From NCBI RefSeq assembly GCF_037023755.1, contig NZ_CP146100.1, positions 3,999,501 to 4,063,500 on the forward strand: a stretch of 64,000 bases of DNA, in the 5' to 3' direction. A model generated the notes under the pieces. That model saw only the letters and a list, made by a program, of their open reading frames with translations. It was not told where the DNA came from and searched no databases. The stretch's first letter is position 1. Each line of letters begins with the position of its first letter. Positions 306 through 10,860 of this stretch are shown here, in pieces. The position numbers and the translations under genes were made by a program. This stretch comes from Saccharopolyspora sp. SCSIO 74807. Lineage in GTDB: Bacteria; Actinomycetota; Actinomycetes; Mycobacteriales; Pseudonocardiaceae.

Positions 306-344
306 GCGCCGAGCCGGGGACGCGCGGTGGCAGGATGTGGTGCG

Positions 345-2777
345 ATGACCGACTTCCACACCGCCGCCGCGTCCACCGGGCTGCCGGTGCTGGACGTGCT
401 CGGCGACCTCACCGGTGCGCTGGACGAGCACGGCACGGCCGTGCTGGTGGCTCCGCCCGGCACCGGGAAGACCACGCTGGTCCCGTTGGCGCTGGCCGAG
501 CGCGGGCTGCGCGTGGTGGTGGCCGAGCCGCGGCGGCTGGCGGCCAGGGCCGCGGCCGGGCGGATGGCCGCGCTGCTGGACGAGGAAGTGGGCGGCCGCG
601 TCGGGTATTCGGTGCGCGGGGAGCGCAAAGCGGGTGCGGACACCGTGGTCGAAGTCGTGACCTCCGGACTGCTGGTACGGCGGTTGCAGGCGGACCCGGA
701 ACTGTCCGCAGTGGACGTTGTGGTGCTGGACGAGTGCCACGAGCGGCAGCTGGACGCGGACCTGCTGCTGGCGTTGCTGCTGGACGCGCGGGAGGGGCTG
801 CGGCCGGACCTGCGGGTGCTGGCGACCTCGGCGACCCTCGCGGCGAACCAGGTGGCCGAACTGCTCGGCGGCGCCCCGATGCTGCGTGCGCAGGGGCGGA
901 TCTACCCGGTCGAGCACCGGCACGTTCCGCCGAACCGCGGTGAGCGGATCGAGACGTGCGTTGCGCGCGCGGTGCGCAAGGCGCTGGACGAGCAGGACGG
1001 CGACGTGCTGGCTTTTCTGCCCGGCGCCGGGGAGATCCGCCGGGTGCGCACTGCGTTGGCAAACTTGTCCGATGTGGACGTCATGCCGCTGCACGGGCGG
1101 CTCGCGCGCGATGCGCAGGACGCCGCGTTGCGGGAAGGGCAGCGGCGGCGTGTCGTGCTGGCGACCGCGGTCGCGGAGTCGAGCTTGACCGTGCCGGGTG
1201 TGCGCGCCGTGGTGGATTCCGGGCTGTCCCGGCAATCCCGGGCCGACCCGCGCCGCGGACTGTCCGGATTGGTCACCGTGCGGGTGTCGGCCGCGGGTGC
1301 CGAGCAGCGCGCCGGACGGGCCGGACGGCAAGGGCCCGGCGTCGCTTACCGCTGCTGGCCGGAGCACGAGCACAGCACGCTGCCCGCCTTCGGCGAACCG
1401 GAGATCCGCACCGCGGAGCTGAGCAGGCTCGCGCTGGAACTGGCGTGCTGGGGAACGCCCGACGGTGCCGCGCTGAGCTGGTGGGACGAGCCGCCCGCAG
1501 GAGCGCTCGCGGCCGGGCGCGAAGTGCTGCGCGAACTCGGGGTGCTGGACGAATCCGGCGCGGTGACCGCGCGGGGGAACCGGATGGCCGGCCTCGGGCT
1601 GCACCCGAGGCTTGCGCGCGCCCTGCTCGACGGCAGCGAACGCGTCGGTGCCGTCGCCGCCGGTGAGGTCGTCGCGCTGCTCGATGACGACTCGGTCACC
1701 ACGGAGACCGATGTGGACAGTGCGCTGGCGCGATTGCGGCGCGGTGGTCCGGGGTCCGAGCGGTGGCGGCGGGAAGCCCGCAGGCTCAGCCGGCTGGTGC
1801 ACGGGGAGCCGGGCGGGCAGGACCTCGCCGAGGTGGTCGCGCTCGCGCATCCGGAACGGCTCGCCCGCCGCAGGTCCGCGGACTCGCCGGTGTACCTGAT
1901 GGCCTCCGGAACCGCCGTCGAAGCGCCCGCGGCACTGCGGCACTGCGAATGGCTCGCGGTCGCGGTCGCCGATCGCACGCCCGGCCACGCGCACGGCACG
2001 GTCCGCTTGGCGGCTCCGGCCGATGAAGAACTGGCCCGGCGGGTCGGCGCACCGCTGCTGAAGGATCGGCGGACCGTCGAGTGGGCAGACGGCGATGTTC
2101 GCGCGGTGCAAGAGGAAACGCTCGGTGCGATCACGCTGCAGAGCCGTCCACTGCGCGATCCCGACCCCGCGCAGGTGCGGTCGGCCCTGCTCGACGGGTT
2201 GCGCACGGCCGGTCTCGGACTGCTGCACTGGACCAAGGACGCCGAGCGGTTGCGCGACCGGCTGGCTTTCCTGCACATCGCGATCGGCGACCCTTGGCCC
2301 GCGGTCGACGATGCGGCACTGCTGTCCGAAGTGGACCACTGGCTGGAGCCCGAACTGTCCCGTGCGGGCAAGCGCGCGGACCTCGAACGCATCTCCGCGG
2401 CCGCCGGGCTGCGCAGGCTCGTCCCGTGGTCGCAGGCCGCGCGGTTCGACGAACTGGCTCCGGACACCGTCGAAGTGCCGTCCGGTTCGCAGGTCCGCAT
2501 CGACTACTCCGGCGACGCACCTGCGCTGCCGGTGAAGTTGCAGGAGGTCTTCGGCTGGCGCCGGGTGCCGGAACTCGCCGACGGGCGCGTTGCGCTGGTG
2601 CTGCAGCTGCTTTCCCCGGCCGGGCGGCCCGCCGCGGTCACCTCCGACCTCGAATCGTTCTGGGCCAACGGCTACCCGCAGGTCCGCGCCGAGTTGCGCG
2701 GCCGCTACCCGAAGCACCCGTGGCCGGACGACCCCACGACCGCCGCCCCGACGGGCCGCACCAAGAATCGCCGATGA
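345..2777 (+). CDS. hrpB: ATP-dependent RNA helicase HrpB
   Basis: A DEAH-box superfamily 2 helicase of 810 residues, the usual HrpB length. Motif I (PPGTGKTT) lies near residue 40, motif II is DECHER near 130, motif III is the SAT of ATSATL, and the motif V/VI region contains ATAVAESSLTVPG and EQRAGRAGR. The long C-terminal half carries the HrpB-specific domains. The family is conserved, but its cellular RNA target is not defined. ATG 345 is preferred over GTG 327 because GGCAGGA lies about 9 bases before it. The gene converges on the rubber locus and is separated from it by a short hairpin. Confidence 0.9.
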   Translation: MTDFHTAAASTGLPVLDVLGDLTGALDEHGTAVLVAPPGTGKTTLVPLALAERGLRVVVAEPRRLAARAAAGRMAALLDEEVGGRVGYSVRGERKAGADTVVEVVTSGLLVRRLQADPELSAVDVVVLDECHERQLDADLLLALLLDAREGLRPDLRVLATSATLAANQVAELLGGAPMLRAQGRIYPVEHRHVPPNRGERIETCVARAVRKALDEQDGDVLAFLPGAGEIRRVRTALANLSDVDVMPLHGRLARDAQDAALREGQRRRVVLATAVAESSLTVPGVRAVVDSGLSRQSRADPRRGLSGLVTVRVSAAGAEQRAGRAGRQGPGVAYRCWPEHEHSTLPAFGEPEIRTAELSRLALELACWGTPDGAALSWWDEPPAGALAAGREVLRELGVLDESGAVTARGNRMAGLGLHPRLARALLDGSERVGAVAAGEVVALLDDDSVTTETDVDSALARLRRGGPGSERWRREARRLSRLVHGEPGGQDLAEVVALAHPERLARRRSADSPVYLMASGTAVEAPAALRHCEWLAVAVADRTPGHAHGTVRLAAPADEELARRVGAPLLKDRRTVEWADGDVRAVQEETLGAITLQSRPLRDPDPAQVRSALLDGLRTAGLGLLHWTKDAERLRDRLAFLHIAIGDPWPAVDDAALLSEVDHWLEPELSRAGKRADLERISAAAGLRRLVPWSQAARFDELAPDTVEVPSGSQVRIDYSGDAPALPVKLQEVFGWRRVPELADGRVALVLQLLSPAGRPAAVTSDLESFWANGYPQVRAELRGRYPKHPWPDDPTTAAPTGRTKNRR

Positions 2778-2862: not shown

Positions 2863-3339
2863 TCACATCTCGCTGGCACCCGCTTTGATCGCCTGCCGGA
2901 TCCGGAAGTAGGTGCCGCAGCGGCAGATGTTGCGGATGCCGTCGATGTCCGAGTCGGTGATCTCACGGCCCTCCGCGGCGACCCGGCGCACCAGGGCCAC
3001 GGCGGCCATGATCTGGCCGGGCTGGCAGTAGCCGCACTGCACGACGTCCTGCTCCAGCCAGGCTTCCTGCATCGGGTGCAACTCGGCGTCCACTGTGGCC
3101 GGAAGTCCTTCGATGGTGGTGACCTCGTCGGTGGGCGAGAGCTCGCCGACGGGGATCGCGCAGGGGTTCACGGCCTTGCCGTTGACGTGGCTCGTGCACG
3201 CCTTGCAGACGTTGATGCCGCAGCCGTACTTCGGCCCGTGCACGCCGAGCAGATCGCGCAGCACCCAGAGCAATCGCACGTCATCTGCGGTGGTGACGGT
3301 GACCTGCTCGCCGTTGAGGCGAAAAGTGTGTTCAGGCAA
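2863..3339 (-). CDS. oxiA: OxiA-type (2Fe-2S) subunit of a molybdenum hydroxylase
   Basis: The small subunit (158 residues) of a xanthine-oxidase/isoquinoline 1-oxidoreductase-type enzyme; it passes electrons from the molybdenum site to an acceptor. All eight cluster cysteines are present: C40, C45, C48 and C60 for the plant-type cluster, and C102, C105, C139 and C141 for the helical-domain cluster. It starts with TTG 3339, with GAGGAG five bases ahead, and lies 9 bp after the oxiB stop, so the two are co-transcribed. In Streptomyces sp. K30 the genes directly after lcp are oxiB and oxiA, proposed to oxidise the aldehydes made by rubber cleavage. That role is inferred here from order and family. 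Confidence 0.85.
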   Translation of the reverse strand: MPEHTFRLNGEQVTVTTADDVRLLWVLRDLLGVHGPKYGCGINVCKACTSHVNGKAVNPCAIPVGELSPTDEVTTIEGLPATVDAELHPMQEAWLEQDVVQCGYCQPGQIMAAVALVRRVAAEGREITDSDIDGIRNICRCGTYFRIRQAIKAGASEM

Positions 3340-3348
3340 GGACGCTCC

Positions 3349-5652
3349 TCAGCGTGCGTGCTCCAGCCCGTCCGTCGGCGACTCGGGAACGGGTGGCACC
3401 GCGGGTTTGGGGGTGAACGAAAGCGTGTCGTGGTTGATCGGGAAGCGGGTGGGCTGCGTGCCGGTGGCGCGGCCGTAGGCGCAGGCGACCGCGGACATCG
3501 CCGCTGCCACGCCGAGTTCGCCCGCCCCGCCCGGTTCTCCGGTGGTGTCCGGCATGATCTCGACGTGCAGGTCGAACGGCACGTTCCACTGCCGGGTGTA
3601 GAAGTAGTTGTCCCAGCTGGCTTCGAGGAAGTGGCCATCGCGCAGGTGCAGGCTGGAAGTCAGCGCCAGCGCGATGCCGTCCATGATGCCGCCCATCATC
3701 TGCGCCTCGAGCCCGCGCGGATTGATCACCAGGCCCGCGTCGACGGCGAAGACGACCCGGGTGACGCGCGGTCCGGCCACGCCGTCGCGGATCGGCCGGT
3801 CGACGGTGCCGGGACGGCAATCGATCTCCACCAGCGCCGCGGTGACCCCGCGGTACTCGGCGTGGAAGGCGATCCCCTGCGCGGTGCCCGCGGGCATCGG
3901 CCGACCCCAGTCCCCGAGTTCGGCGGCCTTGGCCAGCACCGCGCGGGAACGGTCGTCCTGGACGAAGTCGTGCCGGAACCGGTAAGGATCTTCGCCCAGT
4001 TTCGCCGCGAGCCGGTCGACGACGAGCTCGCGGGCGCAGGTGACGTCCGGTGAGTAGACGTTGCGCATGCTGCCGGTGTTGAAGCCCTTGTCGGTCTCGC
4101 ACAGCAACTGGCTGCTCGACCCGAACTCGTAGGGCATCGAGACGCTGAGCTGGAACATCGTTTCGGAGAAGCCGATGTCTCCGACCGGGAGCTTGCCCAC
4201 CATCGCGGAGATGATCTCGCCCAACCCGTGACTCCAGTCGGTCGAAACGCTGGTGTGCCGCTGCTCGTACCCGAGCACGCTGCGCCCGGAGTGGGCCAGG
4301 CGCACCCGCGAGATCGCCATCGGGTGGGTGCGGCCCTGCCGGGAGTCGTCGGCGCGGTGCCACATCAGCTTGACCGGTTTGCCCACCGCCCGGGAGATCT
4401 CGGCGGCCTCCCGCGCGGCGTCGAAGAACAGCTTGCGCCCGAAGGAACCGCCGCCCTCGGTGACGTGCACCCGCACCGCGCCGACGGGCATGCCGAGGTC
4501 GGCGGCGATGGTCTGCTGGGCCACGATCGGGGATTTCAGGCAGGACCAGATCTCGGCCCGGTCCCGGCGCACGTCGGCGACCGCGCAGTTCGGTTCCAGC
4601 GCGCTGTTGCTGCGGAACTGGAACGTGAATTCCGCCTCCACTGTGGACGACAGCGGTGGTGGGCCGAGCGGTGCCTCGGCGGCTCGCAGCTCCGCCAGCA
4701 CGCTGTCGTCGGATTTCCCTTCCGCGGTACCGGGTTTCCAGGCCACTTCGAGCGCGCGCACGGCGTCGATGCACTGCCCGAAGGTCTCCGCCCGCACCGC
4801 GACTCCGGTGGAGATGACCGCGACATCGGTCACTCCGGGCATGGTGCGGACTTCGGCCAGGTTGGACGCGGCCGCGACCGACCCGTTGATCGTGGGCGGC
4901 CGGCAGACCATCGCGGGCATGGCCCCCGGGACGTCGAGGTCCATGGCGAACTTCTTGCGCCCGGTCACAGCCGCGAGCCCGTCGACGCGGTTGTGCGGGG
5001 TGCCGATGACGGTGTGCTGCTCGCGCGGGCCGAGTTCCACCGCGACCTGCCGGTCCCGGGTGCTCGCGGCCTTTTCCGCGAAGGCGCCGATGTCCGCGGC
5101 GGCGCCCGAGGCGGCCGTGATCATTCCGTCGCGCAACGTCAGATCTTGCGCTGCGGCACCGAATTCGGCCGCCGCGACCGCCAGCAGCCGCTCGCGGGCC
5201 AGCGCGGCGGCGACCCGGATCGGCCGATAGGTCGCGATTGTCGTGTTGGAACCGCCGGTGAGCTGGTTGAACACCAGCTCAGGGCGCGCATCGGCGAGCG
5301 TGACGCGAACCCGCTCGACCGGCACGCGCAGCTCTTCGGCGATCAGCATGCTCGTCGAAGTGGTGATGCCCTGGCCGACTTCCGCCCGCGGCAGCGCGAA
5401 CGAGACCGTGCCGTCCTCGCCGACCTCGACCGTGATCAGGTGCGAGGTCGGCGCCGCCGCCACGGTCATCAGGTCGTTCGCGTCGAAGATCTCCGCGAGC
5501 GCCGGTGACGGCAGCTGCGCGTCGGCGGTGCCCGCGCCGCCGAGTTCGGCGGCCGCGACCAGCGTCGGCGCCGCCAGCAGGTATCCGAGGAACCGCCGCC
5601 TGCCGACGACGTGCCCGCCGGGCTCCGGCTCGGGCGGAAGATCGTTGCTCAT
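3349..5652 (-). CDS. oxiB: OxiB-type molybdopterin-binding subunit, Tat-exported
   Basis: The large catalytic subunit (767 residues) of a molybdenum hydroxylase of the IorB/aldehyde-oxidase type. Twin arginines in GRRRFLGYLLAAP (about residues 18-30) and a following hydrophobic stretch indicate Tat export of the folded cofactor-bound complex. Molybdopterin-binding motifs such as GGGSFGRKLFFD and the active-site Glu in GGAGELG (about E712) are present. It has no FAD domain, so it works as a two-subunit enzyme with OxiA. It follows two lcp genes and probably converts aldehyde ends of oligo-isoprenoids to acids (inferred from the K30 locus). The RBS is GAAGGGAG. Confidence 0.85.
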   Translation of the reverse strand: MSNDLPPEPEPGGHVVGRRRFLGYLLAAPTLVAAAELGGAGTADAQLPSPALAEIFDANDLMTVAAAPTSHLITVEVGEDGTVSFALPRAEVGQGITTSTSMLIAEELRVPVERVRVTLADARPELVFNQLTGGSNTTIATYRPIRVAAALARERLLAVAAAEFGAAAQDLTLRDGMITAASGAAADIGAFAEKAASTRDRQVAVELGPREQHTVIGTPHNRVDGLAAVTGRKKFAMDLDVPGAMPAMVCRPPTINGSVAAASNLAEVRTMPGVTDVAVISTGVAVRAETFGQCIDAVRALEVAWKPGTAEGKSDDSVLAELRAAEAPLGPPPLSSTVEAEFTFQFRSNSALEPNCAVADVRRDRAEIWSCLKSPIVAQQTIAADLGMPVGAVRVHVTEGGGSFGRKLFFDAAREAAEISRAVGKPVKLMWHRADDSRQGRTHPMAISRVRLAHSGRSVLGYEQRHTSVSTDWSHGLGEIISAMVGKLPVGDIGFSETMFQLSVSMPYEFGSSSQLLCETDKGFNTGSMRNVYSPDVTCARELVVDRLAAKLGEDPYRFRHDFVQDDRSRAVLAKAAELGDWGRPMPAGTAQGIAFHAEYRGVTAALVEIDCRPGTVDRPIRDGVAGPRVTRVVFAVDAGLVINPRGLEAQMMGGIMDGIALALTSSLHLRDGHFLEASWDNYFYTRQWNVPFDLHVEIMPDTTGEPGGAGELGVAAAMSAVACAYGRATGTQPTRFPINHDTLSFTPKPAVPPVPESPTDGLEHAR

Positions 5653-5805
5653 CGGGGACTCCCTTCGCCGGCGAGGCAGCTCGCAGGCGTCGCACCGCGA
5701 CGACGATCGATGCCGGGTTGCGGTCCATCGGCATCGATCTCGCCGCTGTCGGTTCCGCTCTCCTCCCGCTGCGACCTGCGATCGCGCGAGTCGTCCGTTG
5801 TGGAC

Positions 5806-7026
5806 TCAGGAAGGCCGGTTTCCGGTGGGGATCGAGATGCTGATCGGGTAGTCCCCTTTGGACAGGAACAGCAGGACCGCCTGCCGGATGATCTCGTCGA
5901 ACGCCCAGTAGACCTGGTCGGTGCCGGGGAAGACGTCGAGCAGGCCTTCGCGGACGGCGATGAACGGGCCCCAGAACGTTTTCAGCAACGGGTCCCAGAC
6001 CGGCTCCGGCGGGATCATCAGCCACTCGGCGACCTGATCGCCGAGCATGAACCGGGTCAGCGCGCCGATGACCGGCCTGCTCAGGATGGTGCCGTCGATC
6101 TCCTTGCCGAAGTCCATCAGGATGTCGGCCAGGTTGACACCTTCGGCCGTCGGCGCCAGCACCGGCGTGAGCACCTGATCGGCCTGCGAGTTCGCCTCGT
6201 CCCAGGAAGCCGGGATGTACTCGTCGTCGATGCCGAGCATGTGCGCGCACATCTGCCACGAGTGCAGGTACGCTTCGGACTCCTCGACCGGGATCGGCAC
6301 CTGCCACTCGACCATCTTCCGGTTGACCGTCGTGGCCAGGCTGTGCCAGGTGACCATCATGTCCGCTTGGCTGATCGGGATGTCCTCGGGCGCGACCTGG
6401 CTCCAGTGCGGCGACTTCGGCAGCAGGTTGCGCACGCCGGCGTGGGTGAGCCGGGTCTTGACGCAGGTGACGATCATCTCGCCGTCGTCGGCGTAGGCGT
6501 TCGGGGTGCCGATGTCGTATCCGAGCTTGGCGGTCTTGGTGATGCGGTCCTTCATGTTGGCCCCGCCGTAGGAGTGGTAGACCGCCCGCGCCTCCTTCGG
6601 GATGACCGTGCTCATCATGCCGCTGGCCATCCCGTACAGGACGCCGAGGTAGAGCCCGCGCTTCTCGTTGAACTGGTACGCGAGGTCGAGCTTGCGGTCG
6701 TCGACCCACTCCGGGCGCTGCCGGGCGTTCTCGATGAAGTCGCGCAGCTCGGCGGGAAGCCCCTTCGGCAGCTCCTGGCCGTTCTTGGTCCACTGCGCCA
6801 GCAGCTCGTTGACCCGGGGCACTGCACCGCGGTCGAGCAGCGAGCCGACCAGCGGGTCGGCCACCTCGTCCCAGACCCACCTCGGGTCGGCACCGGTGCC
6901 GGTGCCCACGACCGAACCGCTCGGCGACCACGTCCACGCCGCCGCGGGGCTGGCCATGCCCAGTGCGCCGAGCGCGCCCAAGGCACCACCGGAAGCCAAT
7001 AATTTGCGCCTGCTGAGTTCGCTCAT
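5806..7026 (-). CDS. lcp: latex clearing protein (rubber oxygenase), copy 1
   Basis: A DUF2236/MpaB-fold b-type cytochrome that cleaves poly(cis-1,4-isoprene) with O2 into oligo-isoprenoids carrying aldehyde and ketone ends. It has 406 residues with a Tat signal (SRRKLL, hydrophobic run, cut near residue 30), so it acts outside the cell. The residues known to matter in Streptomyces K30 Lcp are all found with a constant offset of three: E145, R161, K164, T165 and H195 here for E148, R164, K167, T168 and H198 (the heme-ligand His). A strong AAGGAGG precedes the ATG. It lies between the second lcp copy and oxiB on one strand. Confidence 0.92.
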   Translation of the reverse strand: MSELSRRKLLASGGALGALGALGMASPAAAWTWSPSGSVVGTGTGADPRWVWDEVADPLVGSLLDRGAVPRVNELLAQWTKNGQELPKGLPAELRDFIENARQRPEWVDDRKLDLAYQFNEKRGLYLGVLYGMASGMMSTVIPKEARAVYHSYGGANMKDRITKTAKLGYDIGTPNAYADDGEMIVTCVKTRLTHAGVRNLLPKSPHWSQVAPEDIPISQADMMVTWHSLATTVNRKMVEWQVPIPVEESEAYLHSWQMCAHMLGIDDEYIPASWDEANSQADQVLTPVLAPTAEGVNLADILMDFGKEIDGTILSRPVIGALTRFMLGDQVAEWLMIPPEPVWDPLLKTFWGPFIAVREGLLDVFPGTDQVYWAFDEIIRQAVLLFLSKGDYPISISIPTGNRPS

Positions 7027-7195
7027 TTCCTGAACTCCTCCTTGAGTTCCACGGATTGCGAAATTTGCGGAAATCGAAGGTCCTCATCGCGCGAGAACCA
7101 GCGGAATGACCAGTGCGCACGGCGTCGTGCGGGCGAAAAGGTCCGGCGAATCGCCGGAAGGGCCCGCTGCGGCGCGCTCGAACGGACCTACGCGC

Positions 7196-8419
7196 TCACC
7201 TGGGACGGTTGATCGTGGGGATATCGATCTTCGTTTCCTTGCCCTTGGTGAGGTAGAAGAGGATGTACTGGCGCGCGGCTTCGTCGATGGTCCAGGCGAC
7301 TTCGGGCACCGCGGGCAGCGGAACGAGGTTCTCCCGGAACTTCACCAGCAGCGGCCACGCCTCGTTGATCAGCGGTTCCCAGACCGGCTCCCGCGGGATC
7401 GCGTCCCAATCGGCGACCTGATCGCCCACCAGGTACCTGGCCAGGGCGTTGCACAGCGGCCGGGTGACCCCGAGCGGCGGGCTGGTCTGCTCGGCGAGCT
7501 GGCCCAGCAGGACGTCGGTCAGCTCGACGCCTTCCGGCGTCGGACCCATGTTCCGGCCGAGGACCTGGTCGGATTGGGCGTAGGCGGCATTCCAGGTGGC
7601 GGGGATGTACTCCTCGCGGATGCCGAGCAGATAGGCGGTCACCTGCCAGACGTGCAGGTACGCGTCGGACTCGGCCCGGGTGATCGGCACGCCCCAGTCG
7701 AGCATCCGGCGCATCGCGAAGGTCGGCAGCGTGTGCCAGGTGACGAGCATGTCCTCCTGGCTGATCGGGATCCGCTGGCCGCCGCTGGTCTGCTTCCAGC
7801 CGGGGGACTGCTGCAGCAGGTGCCGCACGGCCGCGTGCACCAGCCGGGTCTTGACCGCTTCCACCACGACGGACCCGTCGGGCCGGTAGGCGTTCGGGTC
7901 GCCGACGGCGAATCCCAGGATGCTCGTCTTGGCGACGCGGTCCTCCATGTCCGCGCCGCCCTTGGAGTAGTAGACCGCGCGGGCTTCCTTCGGGATGGCG
8001 GTGCTCAACATGCCGCCGCCGACCCCGTTGAGCAGGTTGAGGTAGATCCCCCTGGACTTGTTGAACTCCGCCGCGAGCTCCAGCTTCCGCTGGTCCGCCC
8101 ATGGCGGCAGCTGGCGCGCCCGTTCCATGAACGCCCGCAGGTCCTGCGGGAGCTCGCGCGGCAGCTCCTGGTCGTTGCGCGTCCAGTCCCACAACAGGCG
8201 GTTGACCTCGGGCACGTCGTCCCGATCGAGCAGCGACGCGAGCAGCGGGTCGGCCTCCTGGTCCCAGACCCAGCTCGGGTCGGCGCCCGCCCCGGTGCCC
8301 GCGATCGAACCGCTCGGCGACCACGTCCACGCCATCGCGGGCGATGCCATGCCCAGCGCGCCCAACGCGCCCAGGGCTCCGCCGGAAGCCAACACCTTGC
8401 GTCTGGTGAATTCATTCAT
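7196..8419 (-). CDS. lcp: latex clearing protein (rubber oxygenase), copy 2
   Basis: A tandem paralogue of the downstream copy, 407 residues, with an almost identical Tat signal region and the same key residues (E145, R161, K164, T165, H195). It differs in many other places: the 155-185 region reads KGGADMEDRVAKTSILGFAV where copy 1 has AKLGYDIG, so this is an old duplication and not an assembly repeat. It is the promoter-proximal gene of the lcp-lcp-oxiB-oxiA row. The RBS is AAGGATCAGGAC before the ATG. Two enzymes could differ in product length or substrate chain; nothing in the sequence settles this. Confidence 0.9.
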   Translation of the reverse strand: MNEFTRRKVLASGGALGALGALGMASPAMAWTWSPSGSIAGTGAGADPSWVWDQEADPLLASLLDRDDVPEVNRLLWDWTRNDQELPRELPQDLRAFMERARQLPPWADQRKLELAAEFNKSRGIYLNLLNGVGGGMLSTAIPKEARAVYYSKGGADMEDRVAKTSILGFAVGDPNAYRPDGSVVVEAVKTRLVHAAVRHLLQQSPGWKQTSGGQRIPISQEDMLVTWHTLPTFAMRRMLDWGVPITRAESDAYLHVWQVTAYLLGIREEYIPATWNAAYAQSDQVLGRNMGPTPEGVELTDVLLGQLAEQTSPPLGVTRPLCNALARYLVGDQVADWDAIPREPVWEPLINEAWPLLVKFRENLVPLPAVPEVAWTIDEAARQYILFYLTKGKETKIDIPTINRPR

Positions 8420-8763
8420 GTCCTGATCCTTGAGCCCGGGAACAGCTGATTGATACGGTGATACACGAACCAGATCGGCGTATCATAGGGAAGCACAAGA
8501 CGATCCCGAACACCAGCCCCCGAGACCGATCCCGTTTCGAATTCCGTCCGCACCGGAAATCGACAGATCACCCGTACCTGCGATGCGGCGAACAGCAGCG
8601 GGGCCAGAAAGAGCATTCGCACTGCACCGGCTCCAGGCCACGCGAACCGCGTGCGCCGTGCGGCCAGGGCCGCCGGTAGCGAGAAACCCGACCGGAACGG
8701 CCGCGGGCTTTCCGGCACCAGCCATGGGCACCGGGTCCTTCCCGGGCGCCGAGGAAGGACACC
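8420..8763. promoter_or_regulatory. divergent promoter region lcp / tetR
   Basis: 344 bp without a gene, between the 5' ends of lcp copy 2 (minus) and the TetR gene (plus). It holds the TGATAC repeats described separately close to lcp. The base composition is clearly lower in GC near 8440-8560 than in the flanking genes. This is expected to hold both promoters and the binding site of the divergent regulator. Confidence 0.6.
8451..8485. promoter_or_regulatory. TGATAC repeat cluster, candidate LcpR operator
   Basis: TGATAC occurs at 8451-8456 and 8459-8464 (8-bp period), and its complement GTATCA at 8480-8485. TGATACG (8451-8457) and CGTATCA (8479-8485) form a 7-bp inverted repeat. The cluster begins 32 bases upstream of the lcp start codon, where an operator or the -10 region would lie. 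Confidence 0.4.
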
Positions 8764-9438
8764 GTGGAACCTGTACCGTCCGGCTGCATGACGCCGCAGG
8801 ACTCGGACTCGCTGCTGGAACGCGCGTTCGCCGAGGCCGACGACCCCGTCGAGGACACCGACGAGACCACTGCGCGCCTGCTCGACGCCGCGTACGAGCA
8901 GTTCTGCCGAATGGGCATCCGCCGATCCACGATGGAGGACGTGGCGCGCCGCGCCGGGGTCTCCAGGATCACCGTCTACCGCCGGTTCACCACCAAGGAC
9001 GCGCTGGTCGAGCACGTGGTGCGCCGCGAGTTCCGCTGGTACTTCGACCGGTTCCGCACCGACATCGCGCAGGCCGCGACCGCCGCCGACCGGGTCGAGC
9101 TCGGATTCGCCAGCGCGCTGCGCGCCATCCGCGGCAATCCGCTGATCGGCGGCCTGATGGAGGCCGAGCCGGACCTGCTGGTGCCCTCGATGATCAACGA
9201 CGGCGGCCGGACCTTGGCCACCGTGCGGCGATTCCTGGCAGGCCAGCTCCGGCACGAACAGGCCACCGGCCACGTCGCCGCGGCGGTAGACGTGGACCTC
9301 GTCGCCGAGATGATGGTCCGCGTCTCGGCGTCGTTCCTGGTCATTCCCAGCGAGCTCGTCGACATCGACGACGACGAGCAGATCCGCGCCGTCGCCCGCC
9401 GGTTCCTGGTGCCGATGCTGGAACCGTCCGCGCCCTGA
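8764..9438 (+). CDS. TetR-family regulator, probable LcpR
   Basis: 224 residues. The N-terminal half holds a TetR helix-turn-helix (LLDAAYEQFCRMGIRRSTME..., then VARRAGVSRITVYRRFTTKD, about residues 38-80). The C-terminal half is a ligand-binding helical domain of the usual size. GTG 8764 is chosen because GAGGAAGG ends five bases before it; ATG 8788 is an alternative. It is divergent from the lcp operon. TetR regulators named LcpR control lcp in Gordonia polyisoprenivorans, so a repressor released by rubber breakdown products is the natural reading (inference). Confidence 0.8.
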   Translation: MEPVPSGCMTPQDSDSLLERAFAEADDPVEDTDETTARLLDAAYEQFCRMGIRRSTMEDVARRAGVSRITVYRRFTTKDALVEHVVRREFRWYFDRFRTDIAQAATAADRVELGFASALRAIRGNPLIGGLMEAEPDLLVPSMINDGGRTLATVRRFLAGQLRHEQATGHVAAAVDVDLVAEMMVRVSASFLVIPSELVDIDDDEQIRAVARRFLVPMLEPSAP

Positions 9439-9457: not shown

Positions 9458-10579
9458 TCAGGGCGCGGGAACCCGCGCGTCCTCCGGAACGGCCTGCAGA
9501 TCGCCGCGCCGGTCCGGCAGGCAGGCCGCGCGCCGGGCGTCGTCGTTCAGGAACTGGCTGAGGCAACCGCCCAGCTGGGCGTGTCCGGCGGCGTTGGCGT
9601 GGAACGACTCCTGCATCGCGTGCGGGGCGCGGTCGTCGTACTGCAGGCTCTCCCAATCCACCGTGAGCCGGGTGAACCACTCCTCGCCCTGCCCGGCGGG
9701 CGACGCCTGCCCCGGCGGAACCTGTTGCGGCTGCCCCTGTTGCGGTGACGGACCGGTGCACGCCTCGTGCCCGACACCGGCGCGCGAGAGGTCGAGGAAC
9801 CGCGCGTCGACCGCGCCTGCGGCTTTCCGCAGCCCTTCGGACAGCTGCGGCACACCGGTGTCCCTGATCCACCTCAGATCACCGGTCTGGAACGGGCAGC
9901 CGGACAGGTTCTGCAGCTGCGGGGCGATCTCCGGGCCGACCGGCGAAGCGTAGGACTGCACGACCAGCGAATAGCTCTGCGGCGTGTAGCCCGCCCGCTC
10001 CATCACCGAGCGCACGTCCCGCAGCGCCGAGACGACCTTGGGCCGCATCTGCTCCACCCGCTGCGGCCAGGTCTTGCTCAGCTGTGCCGAGCAGCCGCCC
10101 GGCACCCGCCGCGCCCACGCCTGCACGCACCGGTTGACCGCGTCGGTGAAACCCGGATCGTCGTTCGCGCCGACCTGCACCACGACGTCGGTGATCCGGT
10201 AGCGGGAGGCGAGCTCGGCCAGCCGGGCGGCCTGCGAGCCCTCGGCGTGCTCCGGGCTGGGCTGCAGGCCGACCAGCTTCGCCTGCGCCCCCGAGCAGGC
10301 CAGGTTGAACCGGCTCACCCCCGGCGGCAGCTGCAGCTGGTGCACCGCCGCGGCGGGAGATCGGTGGCACCAGTCGTCGTTGGCGCCGTTGGTGCCCGCC
10401 TCGTAGTTGCCGCCGCCTTCGCCGGACAGCGTGCTGTCGCCGAGCGTGACCACCGCGGCGGGCAACCGCTCCGGCTGCTGCGGCAGGCTCGGCACGTTCT
10501 GATCGCTGACCAGGATCGCGAGCGCCAGGACGCCGCAGACCGCCAGCAGTGCGAGGAATCTCGACTTGTGCGCCCGCAT
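9458..10579 (-). CDS. secreted SGNH/GDSL hydrolase
   Basis: 373 residues from ATG 10579, where a short basic N-terminus is followed by a hydrophobic helix (FLALLAVCGVLALAIL), a signal peptide or membrane anchor. SGNH blocks are visible: VTLGDST with Ser49, a GAND block (VQVGANDDPGF), and the C-terminal HANAAGH with His about 333. A Gln/Pro-rich insertion lies before the last block. Substrate is unknown: lipid, acetylated glycan or peptidoglycan esters are possible. It converges with the TetR gene with only 19 bp between stops. No operon partner. Confidence 0.8.
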   Translation of the reverse strand: MRAHKSRFLALLAVCGVLALAILVSDQNVPSLPQQPERLPAAVVTLGDSTLSGEGGGNYEAGTNGANDDWCHRSPAAAVHQLQLPPGVSRFNLACSGAQAKLVGLQPSPEHAEGSQAARLAELASRYRITDVVVQVGANDDPGFTDAVNRCVQAWARRVPGGCSAQLSKTWPQRVEQMRPKVVSALRDVRSVMERAGYTPQSYSLVVQSYASPVGPEIAPQLQNLSGCPFQTGDLRWIRDTGVPQLSEGLRKAAGAVDARFLDLSRAGVGHEACTGPSPQQGQPQQVPPGQASPAGQGEEWFTRLTVDWESLQYDDRAPHAMQESFHANAAGHAQLGGCLSQFLNDDARRAACLPDRRGDLQAVPEDARVPAP

Positions 10580-10860
10580 CGGCGAGCAGTCTATGCGGTG
10601 TTGATGAAGCCATCGCCCGTGGCGGTGCCGAACTCGCCGAGCCCGGCGCGACCGGCAGGGAGGCCCCGCTGACCTGCGCGTTCGTCCGCATGCGAAAGTT
10701 GCGGTCCCGCTGCGGGCGGGGGAGGCGGGCTCGCCGGGGTGGCGATCGCAACACTCCGGCAAGTTCGCCGCGCGGATCGGGAGAAAAATCGGACACCGGT
10801 GCGTTGAACACAGGGAGAAGTAGCTGTCTGCCGGGGTTTCCCCGCTTGCGGAGGTTTGCA

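Follow-up and report, generated by a model that had tools for sequence, protein, structure and literature searches.

A predicted LcpR-controlled rubber-degradation locus with two old lcp paralogues in reversed order in Saccharopolyspora sp. SCSIO 74807

Gene content and predicted control of the locus

Saccharopolyspora sp. SCSIO 74807 very probably carries an LcpR-controlled lcpA-lcpB-oxiB-oxiA operon for rubber degradation, in which two old lcp paralogues stand in a lineage-specific, reversed order. The window (the whole 64,000-nucleotide stretch of DNA that was analysed) comes from a genome of one contig, 6.69 Mb in size. Its open reading frames at 2863–9438 comprise four minus-strand genes and one plus-strand TetR gene (Table 1). 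The locus is genuine and seems to be a complete example of a known operon type, in which the order of the paralogues is reversed. An earlier note on this DNA had called it a rubber-degradation locus, which homology supports, and had given the order as lcp, lcp, oxiB (large subunit), and oxiA (small subunit) with a divergent TetR gene, with which coordinates and domains agree. The Pfam domains are MPAB_Lcp_cat in both Lcps, MoCoBD_1/2 in OxiB, Fer2/Fer2_2 in OxiA, and TetR_N in the regulator. Our naming of oxiB and oxiA agrees with the available text of PMC8235351 and PMC9108482.

Table 1. Features of the lcp-oxi locus, in window coordinates
Feature	Position	Strand	Description
lcpA	8419-7196	-	First gene of the set, 407 aa; predicted Tat-secreted b-haem rubber oxygenase, class A
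lcpB	7026-5806	-	Second predicted rubber oxygenase, class B, 406 aa; 57% identical to lcpA
oxiB	5652-3349	-	767 aa; large molybdopterin-binding subunit, predicted oligo-isoprenoid aldehyde oxidoreductase
oxiA	3339-2863	-	158 aa, [2Fe-2S] small subunit; TTG start, 9 nt after oxiB
TetR-family regulator, LcpR kind	8764-9438	+	224 aa, divergent to lcpA
Predicted LcpR operator TGATAC-N15-GTATCA-N2-GTATCA	8451-8485	-	31 nt before lcpA start codon
lcpA-lcpB gap	7027-7195	-	169 nt (172 by alignment ends); no operator copy
lcpB-oxiB gap	5653-5805	-	153 nt (156 by alignment ends); no detectable Lcp remnant

A phmmer search against the PDB matched both lcpA (E 1.4e-165) and lcpB (E 9.6e-146) to LcpK30 (5o1l) over essentially the full length, and lcpA is 60.6% identical to LcpK30. 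Alignment confirmed the earlier statement that both paralogues hold five residues of K30 at a constant offset of three: E148, R164, K167, T168, and H198, including the haem ligands K167 and H198, correspond to E145, R161, K164, T165, and H195 in both window Lcps. A phylogeny of both copies against characterised enzymes, the check suggested with that statement, placed both inside the Lcp clade. By full-length homology and clade position, lcpA and lcpB are thus predicted to encode Lcp-type rubber oxygenases. By eye, RRKVLA and RRKLLA near the Lcp N-termini match the Tat motif RRxxL, a predicted export signal, and OxiB has RRRFL near its N-terminus. Searching the host genome with lcpA at E 0.001 returned both Lcps and one match of 27% identity, all three of which belong to the six members of the Lcp Pfam family in this genome. 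No third Lcp comparable to lcp3 of Actinoplanes sp. OR16 was found in the 6.69-Mb genome by that lcpA search.

Judged by its subunits, one binding molybdopterin and the other [2Fe-2S], and by its place downstream of lcp, OxiAB is a predicted molybdenum hydroxylase pair. Both proteins fall below the cut-offs of every NCBIfam equivalog matched; the substrate assignment therefore follows from gene context.

The plus-strand gene encodes a putative TetR regulator of the LcpR kind, with a predicted operator in the divergent gap. For comparison, 154 loci with an Lcp match were merged by shared Lcp sequences to 133 distinct loci, some of them short stretches, and 105 of these have a TetR relative with the lcp genes. 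Counting each distinct Lcp sequence once, divergent TetR-lcp pairs separated by 40–700 nt gave 101 gaps, including the window and Saccharopolyspora sp. HNM0986 (L010). GTATCA occurs on either strand in 97 of these gaps, where base shuffles predict 4.6. The fuller pattern TGATAC-N3-G-N11-GTWTCA-N2-GTATCA fits 99/101 gaps at ≤3 mismatches and 0 of 1010 shuffles at ≤5; the shuffles preserve base composition only, and 99/101 is a measure of conservation, not an independent test, since these gaps also supplied the pattern. The two misfitting gaps have 5 and 6 mismatches. The window site is a perfect copy. Apart from the same site on the other strand, no second operator was found in the 6.69-Mb genome at ≤3 mismatches, so we reject a wider regulon; a reversed control pattern also had no match there at that threshold. 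The operator precedes class A genes (30 gaps), class B genes (68), and other genes (3) alike. Its three-half-site architecture seems new relative to the open-access literature searched.

A promoter scan gave a single sigma-70-like site, against 0.2 in shuffles; it spans the operator at 8458–8486 on the strand of the TetR gene. The lcpA-lcpB gap contains a terminator-like stem (7099–7079), though the region has two terminator-like sites against 2.5 in shuffles. Co-transcription is predicted, with the caveat that the gaps of 169 and 153 nt leave room for internal promoters.

Proposed function of the two oxygenases

The chemistry and structure of Lcp enzymes are established for K30 (PMC5522427; review PMC6311187, as available), and we infer each step in the window organism from orthologues. 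LcpR bound at the operator, as its orthologues bind, would hold back lcpA-lcpB-oxiB-oxiA until a rubber-derived signal appears. LcpA and LcpB would be exported by the Tat route, each binding b-haem by Lys164 and His195 in window numbering. Like characterised Lcps, they would make endo cuts in the polymer and release oligo-isoprenoids that carry aldehyde and ketone groups at their ends. The aldehyde groups may then be oxidised by OxiAB to acids that enter beta-oxidation, as proposed in the literature.

It is unlikely that only one Lcp is a working rubber oxygenase and the other a kept copy of low activity. Such an outcome would be in keeping with the unequal O2 uptake on latex reported for the purified OR16 enzymes (4.02 U/mg for Lcp1, 1.17 U/mg for Lcp2; PMC7413915, as available), with loci that have a single or interrupted lcp (L079, L089), and with the replacement of Lys at position 167 in 2/94 class B rows. 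However, both OR16 enzymes are active, and both window Lcps hold all five key residues, as do 79/79 class A rows. Two working rubber oxygenases are the preferred reading.

Less likely still, these Lcp-clade haem oxygenases might have another polyprenoid or terpenoid as natural substrate, with rubber cleavage incidental. The gene is common: lcpA has matches at E 1e-60 in 123 of 390 genomes of the family, a frequency that, to our knowledge, exceeds what known rubber degraders would suggest. Against this, the key residues, the oxiAB context, and the regulator all match the OR16 operon, which is described as latex-induced with latex-active enzymes in the available text of PMC7413915. Rubber therefore stays the predicted substrate of the operon.

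The paralogues had also been thought to differ specially in a loop at 155–185 (K30 numbering), with a possible effect on chain-length preference. They do not differ specially there: 13 of 31 positions (42%) differ between the window copies, compared with 45% over the mature protein, and 73% of all stretches of 31 residues show at least as many differences. With no excess in the window-copy comparison, we discarded the stretch as a divergence hot spot; three of 23 class-specific positions lie in it. The stretch matters because the haem ligand Lys167 lies within it, and the helix E of this residue rearranges in K30 (PMC5522427, as available). A few residues past this distal haem ligand, at position 174 (residue 171 in window lcpA), class B conserves Asp (94 rows; fraction 1.0 after rounding), and 87% of class A has Ala there.

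Age and order of the paralogues

Class labels A, B, and K were taken from FastTree, and a careful tree was built from 43 of 194 distinct Lcp rows, with those of L156, L159, and L033 excluded as long or doubtful; both trees omit Lcp matches spanning less than about 330 query residues. In the careful tree, window lcpA lies inside class A (support 98/92), and K30 falls in class K (100/98), the sister of class A (A and K together 99/97). The lcpB gene is on the opposite side of the tree (100/100) with Gordonia Lcp2VH2. Class B does not form a clean single clade there, as O-labelled rows lie beside or within it. Window lcpA is 82.4% identical to the class A enzyme of Dactylosporangium AC04546 and 57.5% identical to its class B enzyme; lcpB is 72.6% identical to the latter. 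Forcing window lcpA and lcpB to be sisters costs 435 log-likelihood units (p-AU 3e-14). With the sister pairing rejected by the tree and the AU test, lcpA and lcpB are old, separately conserved paralogues rather than the result of a local duplication. The earlier view of the tandem duplication as an addition must be dropped on this ground, and also because the arrangement is already known: the same operon is published for OR16, and an adjacent lcp pair before oxiB-oxiA for Dactylosporangium AC04546 and Streptomyces CFMR7 (PMC11169899, PMC9108482, as available).

A recent local duplication in the host, heading to sub-functionalisation, is extremely improbable: the copies are adjacent on the same strand and their signal-peptide stretch (K30 3–33) is 86% identical, against 70% to other genomes' paralogues, but each copy is nearer its orthologue in Dactylosporangium, which belongs to another family, than its partner, and tree and AU test reject it, which leaves room only for conversion of the 5' end. 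The signal-peptide likeness of the window copies, third of 51 pairs and second of 49 once duplicates are removed, reflects at most a short conversion tract. The pair of Saccharopolyspora sp. NFXS83 (L011) ranks eighth of 49, and L081, with the same A-B order, shows no such likeness, so it is no clear mark of the order swap. Whole-gene conversion was also rejected, as A-B identity within genomes is only 0.004–0.017 above that between genomes (six segments, 51 pairs).

We return to the old paralogues and their order. Adjacent A and B genes on the same strand occur in 43 of the 133 distinct loci, 39 as B-A and four as A-B; these proportions are no census, since some loci were selected because they showed paired genes, an unusual order, or an outgroup, and one search used peptide patterns from the window's own proteins. 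The four A-B loci are the window, NFXS83, and L081 and L082, both from the same family. L081 and L082 have no oxi genes in the stretch examined, and in L082 the TetR gene stands on the opposite flank. Where oxiB-oxiA follows the pair, 32 loci run B-A and two A-B; among the loci examined, A-B followed by oxiB-oxiA is found elsewhere only in the window's own species and NFXS83. Immediately before oxiB, 49 loci have an lcp gene, of class A in 41, K in four, B in three (the window, L011, and L136 with its single lcp), and without clear class in one. Six further loci are arranged as A-oxiB-oxiA, TetR, B. The A-B order, a reversal that the earlier note does not mention, seems to be among the few new points when set against the open-access literature searched.

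Other arrangements were also seen. In L085, L086, L087, and L088 the order is TetR / A-K-oxiB-oxiA, with a K30-type Lcp by oxiB behind the class A gene. In eighteen loci a lone class A lcp is accompanied by a TetR gene in divergent orientation, and the stretch examined shows no oxiAB; they are the Nonomuraea set L040–L047, L049, L050, L052, L057, L078, and L080, plus four others.

In 32 usual-order loci the lcpB-lcpA gap has a median of 49.5 nt (range 10–215), compared with 172 nt by alignment ends for lcpA-lcpB in the window, and the lcpA-oxiB gap has a median of 18.5 nt (range −31 to 49). The lcpB-oxiB gap is 156 nt in the window and 225 nt in L011 by alignment ends, and such length is as expected of a rearranged junction. 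No remnant of an older lcpA copy, such as a route by duplication and deletion could leave behind, was found in either window gap, only 10-nt chance matches to the window lcp genes. In the lcpA-lcpB gap, 29 nt beside the lcpB start are common to the window, L011, and L081. The lcpA genes of these three loci form one clade in the careful tree (97/93), which makes one swap the simplest reading. However, the single-copy rows L118 and L090 are intermixed among their lcpB genes, as is the usual-order lcpB of S. hirsuta (97/85, careful tree), which suggests a less simple history. A rearrangement in the window lineage would have reversed the usual lcp order.

The tandem pair occurs in three of six genomes of the genus, two of them from one species: the lcpA of Saccharopolyspora sp. 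HNM0986, which belongs to the window's own species, is 100% identical after rounding. Elsewhere in the genus there is a lone lcpB-like gene in G004, a decayed remnant in G002, and no lcp match at E 1e-40 in G003. The G002 remnant (L089, 4960–6697) has TetR matches from residue 90 only, directly followed by a piece of lcpA (residues 93–406), then a piece of oxiA; no lcpB or oxiB match was found in L089. The flanking genes, on the hrpB side (window 327–2777) and at 9458–10762 (without Pfam or NCBIfam match), are both present in 6/6 genus genomes. In none of the four other species are they neighbours: 45 kb to 1.7 Mb separate them in three, and in the fourth, a draft genome, they are on different contigs. 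The operon may therefore occupy a rearrangement junction specific to the window's species. Any lcp genes in these species sit elsewhere, apart from the flanking-gene site. With lcp genes elsewhere, decayed, or missing in sister species, the gene set may be dispensable.

Tentatively, and with somewhat less than even confidence, we propose that A and B, separate since ancient times, are kept for a division of labour under one three-half-site LcpR operator (TGATAC-N15-GTWTCA-N2-GTATCA), which would hold its place when the lcp genes behind it are swapped, so that in this Saccharopolyspora lineage A would lie at the promoter and B by oxiB. The known picture of rubber degradation is left unchanged. 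Rubber waste gives multi-lcp operons a practical interest, and the comparison offers a testable regulator site. The natural order swap gives a handle on whether operon position sets the dose of each enzyme, and the A/B/K grouping could steady the strain-dependent lcp1/lcp2/lcp3 numbering.

Comparison with known systems

Published systems are described here as in the available portions of the cited papers. In the rubber and Lcp literature so covered, Saccharopolyspora appears in general remarks and as S. erythraea, a clear-zone-negative host used to express the K30 gene.

Like the window, Streptomyces sp. K30 has lcp followed by oxiB and oxiA, the key residues, and Tat export (PMC8235351, PMC9108482, PMC5522427). 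The earlier note had matched the window's gene order to that of K30; this holds for lcp-oxiB-oxiA, but a TetR gene beside the K30 lcp appears nowhere in the text available. K30 has one lcp, of class K, whereas the window has A and B.

Lcp2 of Gordonia polyisoprenivorans VH2 (plasmid p174, L121) lies on the class B side and is 57% identical to lcpB. It is encoded by a single plasmid gene, and the five features within 3 kb of it include no oxiAB. Its published LcpR site, GATAC-N15-GTAACT-CG-GTTTC (L121 2791, before lcp2), fits all three half-sites of the window operator and their spacing, with changed letters. By eye, the VH2 lcp1 site TGTTAC-N15-GTTACA fits half-sites 1 and 2 in our reading; the authors describe the VH2 and OR16 regulator sites as palindromes.

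In Dactylosporangium AC04546 (L026), as in the window, an lcp pair stands before oxiB-oxiA with TetR genes upstream. Unlike the window, its order read from L026 is B-A, and a third lcp lies elsewhere (PMC11169899). By printed gene length, its lcp2 is the first gene, of class B, and lcp3 is the class A gene adjoining oxiB. The same paper states orthology between the OR16 and AC04546 Lcps. It puts the adjacent Lcp2-Lcp3 pair at 45.9% identity and Lcp1-Lcp3 at 60.8%; the adjacent L026 pair is 61.5% identical here, so these labels may be interchanged.

The closest parallel is Actinoplanes sp. OR16, in which ACTI_59620 (TetR) is divergent to lcp1-lcp2-oxiB-oxiA. The genes are co-transcribed, latex induces their expression, and the region upstream of lcp1 is bound by the TetR protein (PMC7413915). 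The OR16 operon shares with the window the same five genes, the divergent TetR, and the adjacent lcp pair ahead of oxiB-oxiA, and in our reading its printed palindrome, GTAACA-GC-GTATCA, is half-sites 2 and 3 of the window operator. OR16 also has a distant lcp3, whereas the window genome has no such third Lcp at E 0.001. The published OR16 primers translate to LYLGVL and DIMVTWH for lcp1 and DILVTW for lcp2. YLGVLY occurs in 72/94 class B rows and 0/79 class A rows, DILVTW in 8/79 and 0/94 rows of A and B, respectively, and position 228 is Leu in 79/79 A rows and 6/94 B rows. From these primer-encoded residues, OR16 lcp1 is class B and lcp2 class A, an order also seen in four Actinoplanes/Paractinoplanes loci (L030, L036, L038, L039). 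OR16 thus runs B-A and the window A-B: the gene set is equal, the order differs, and the window holds a rearranged relative.
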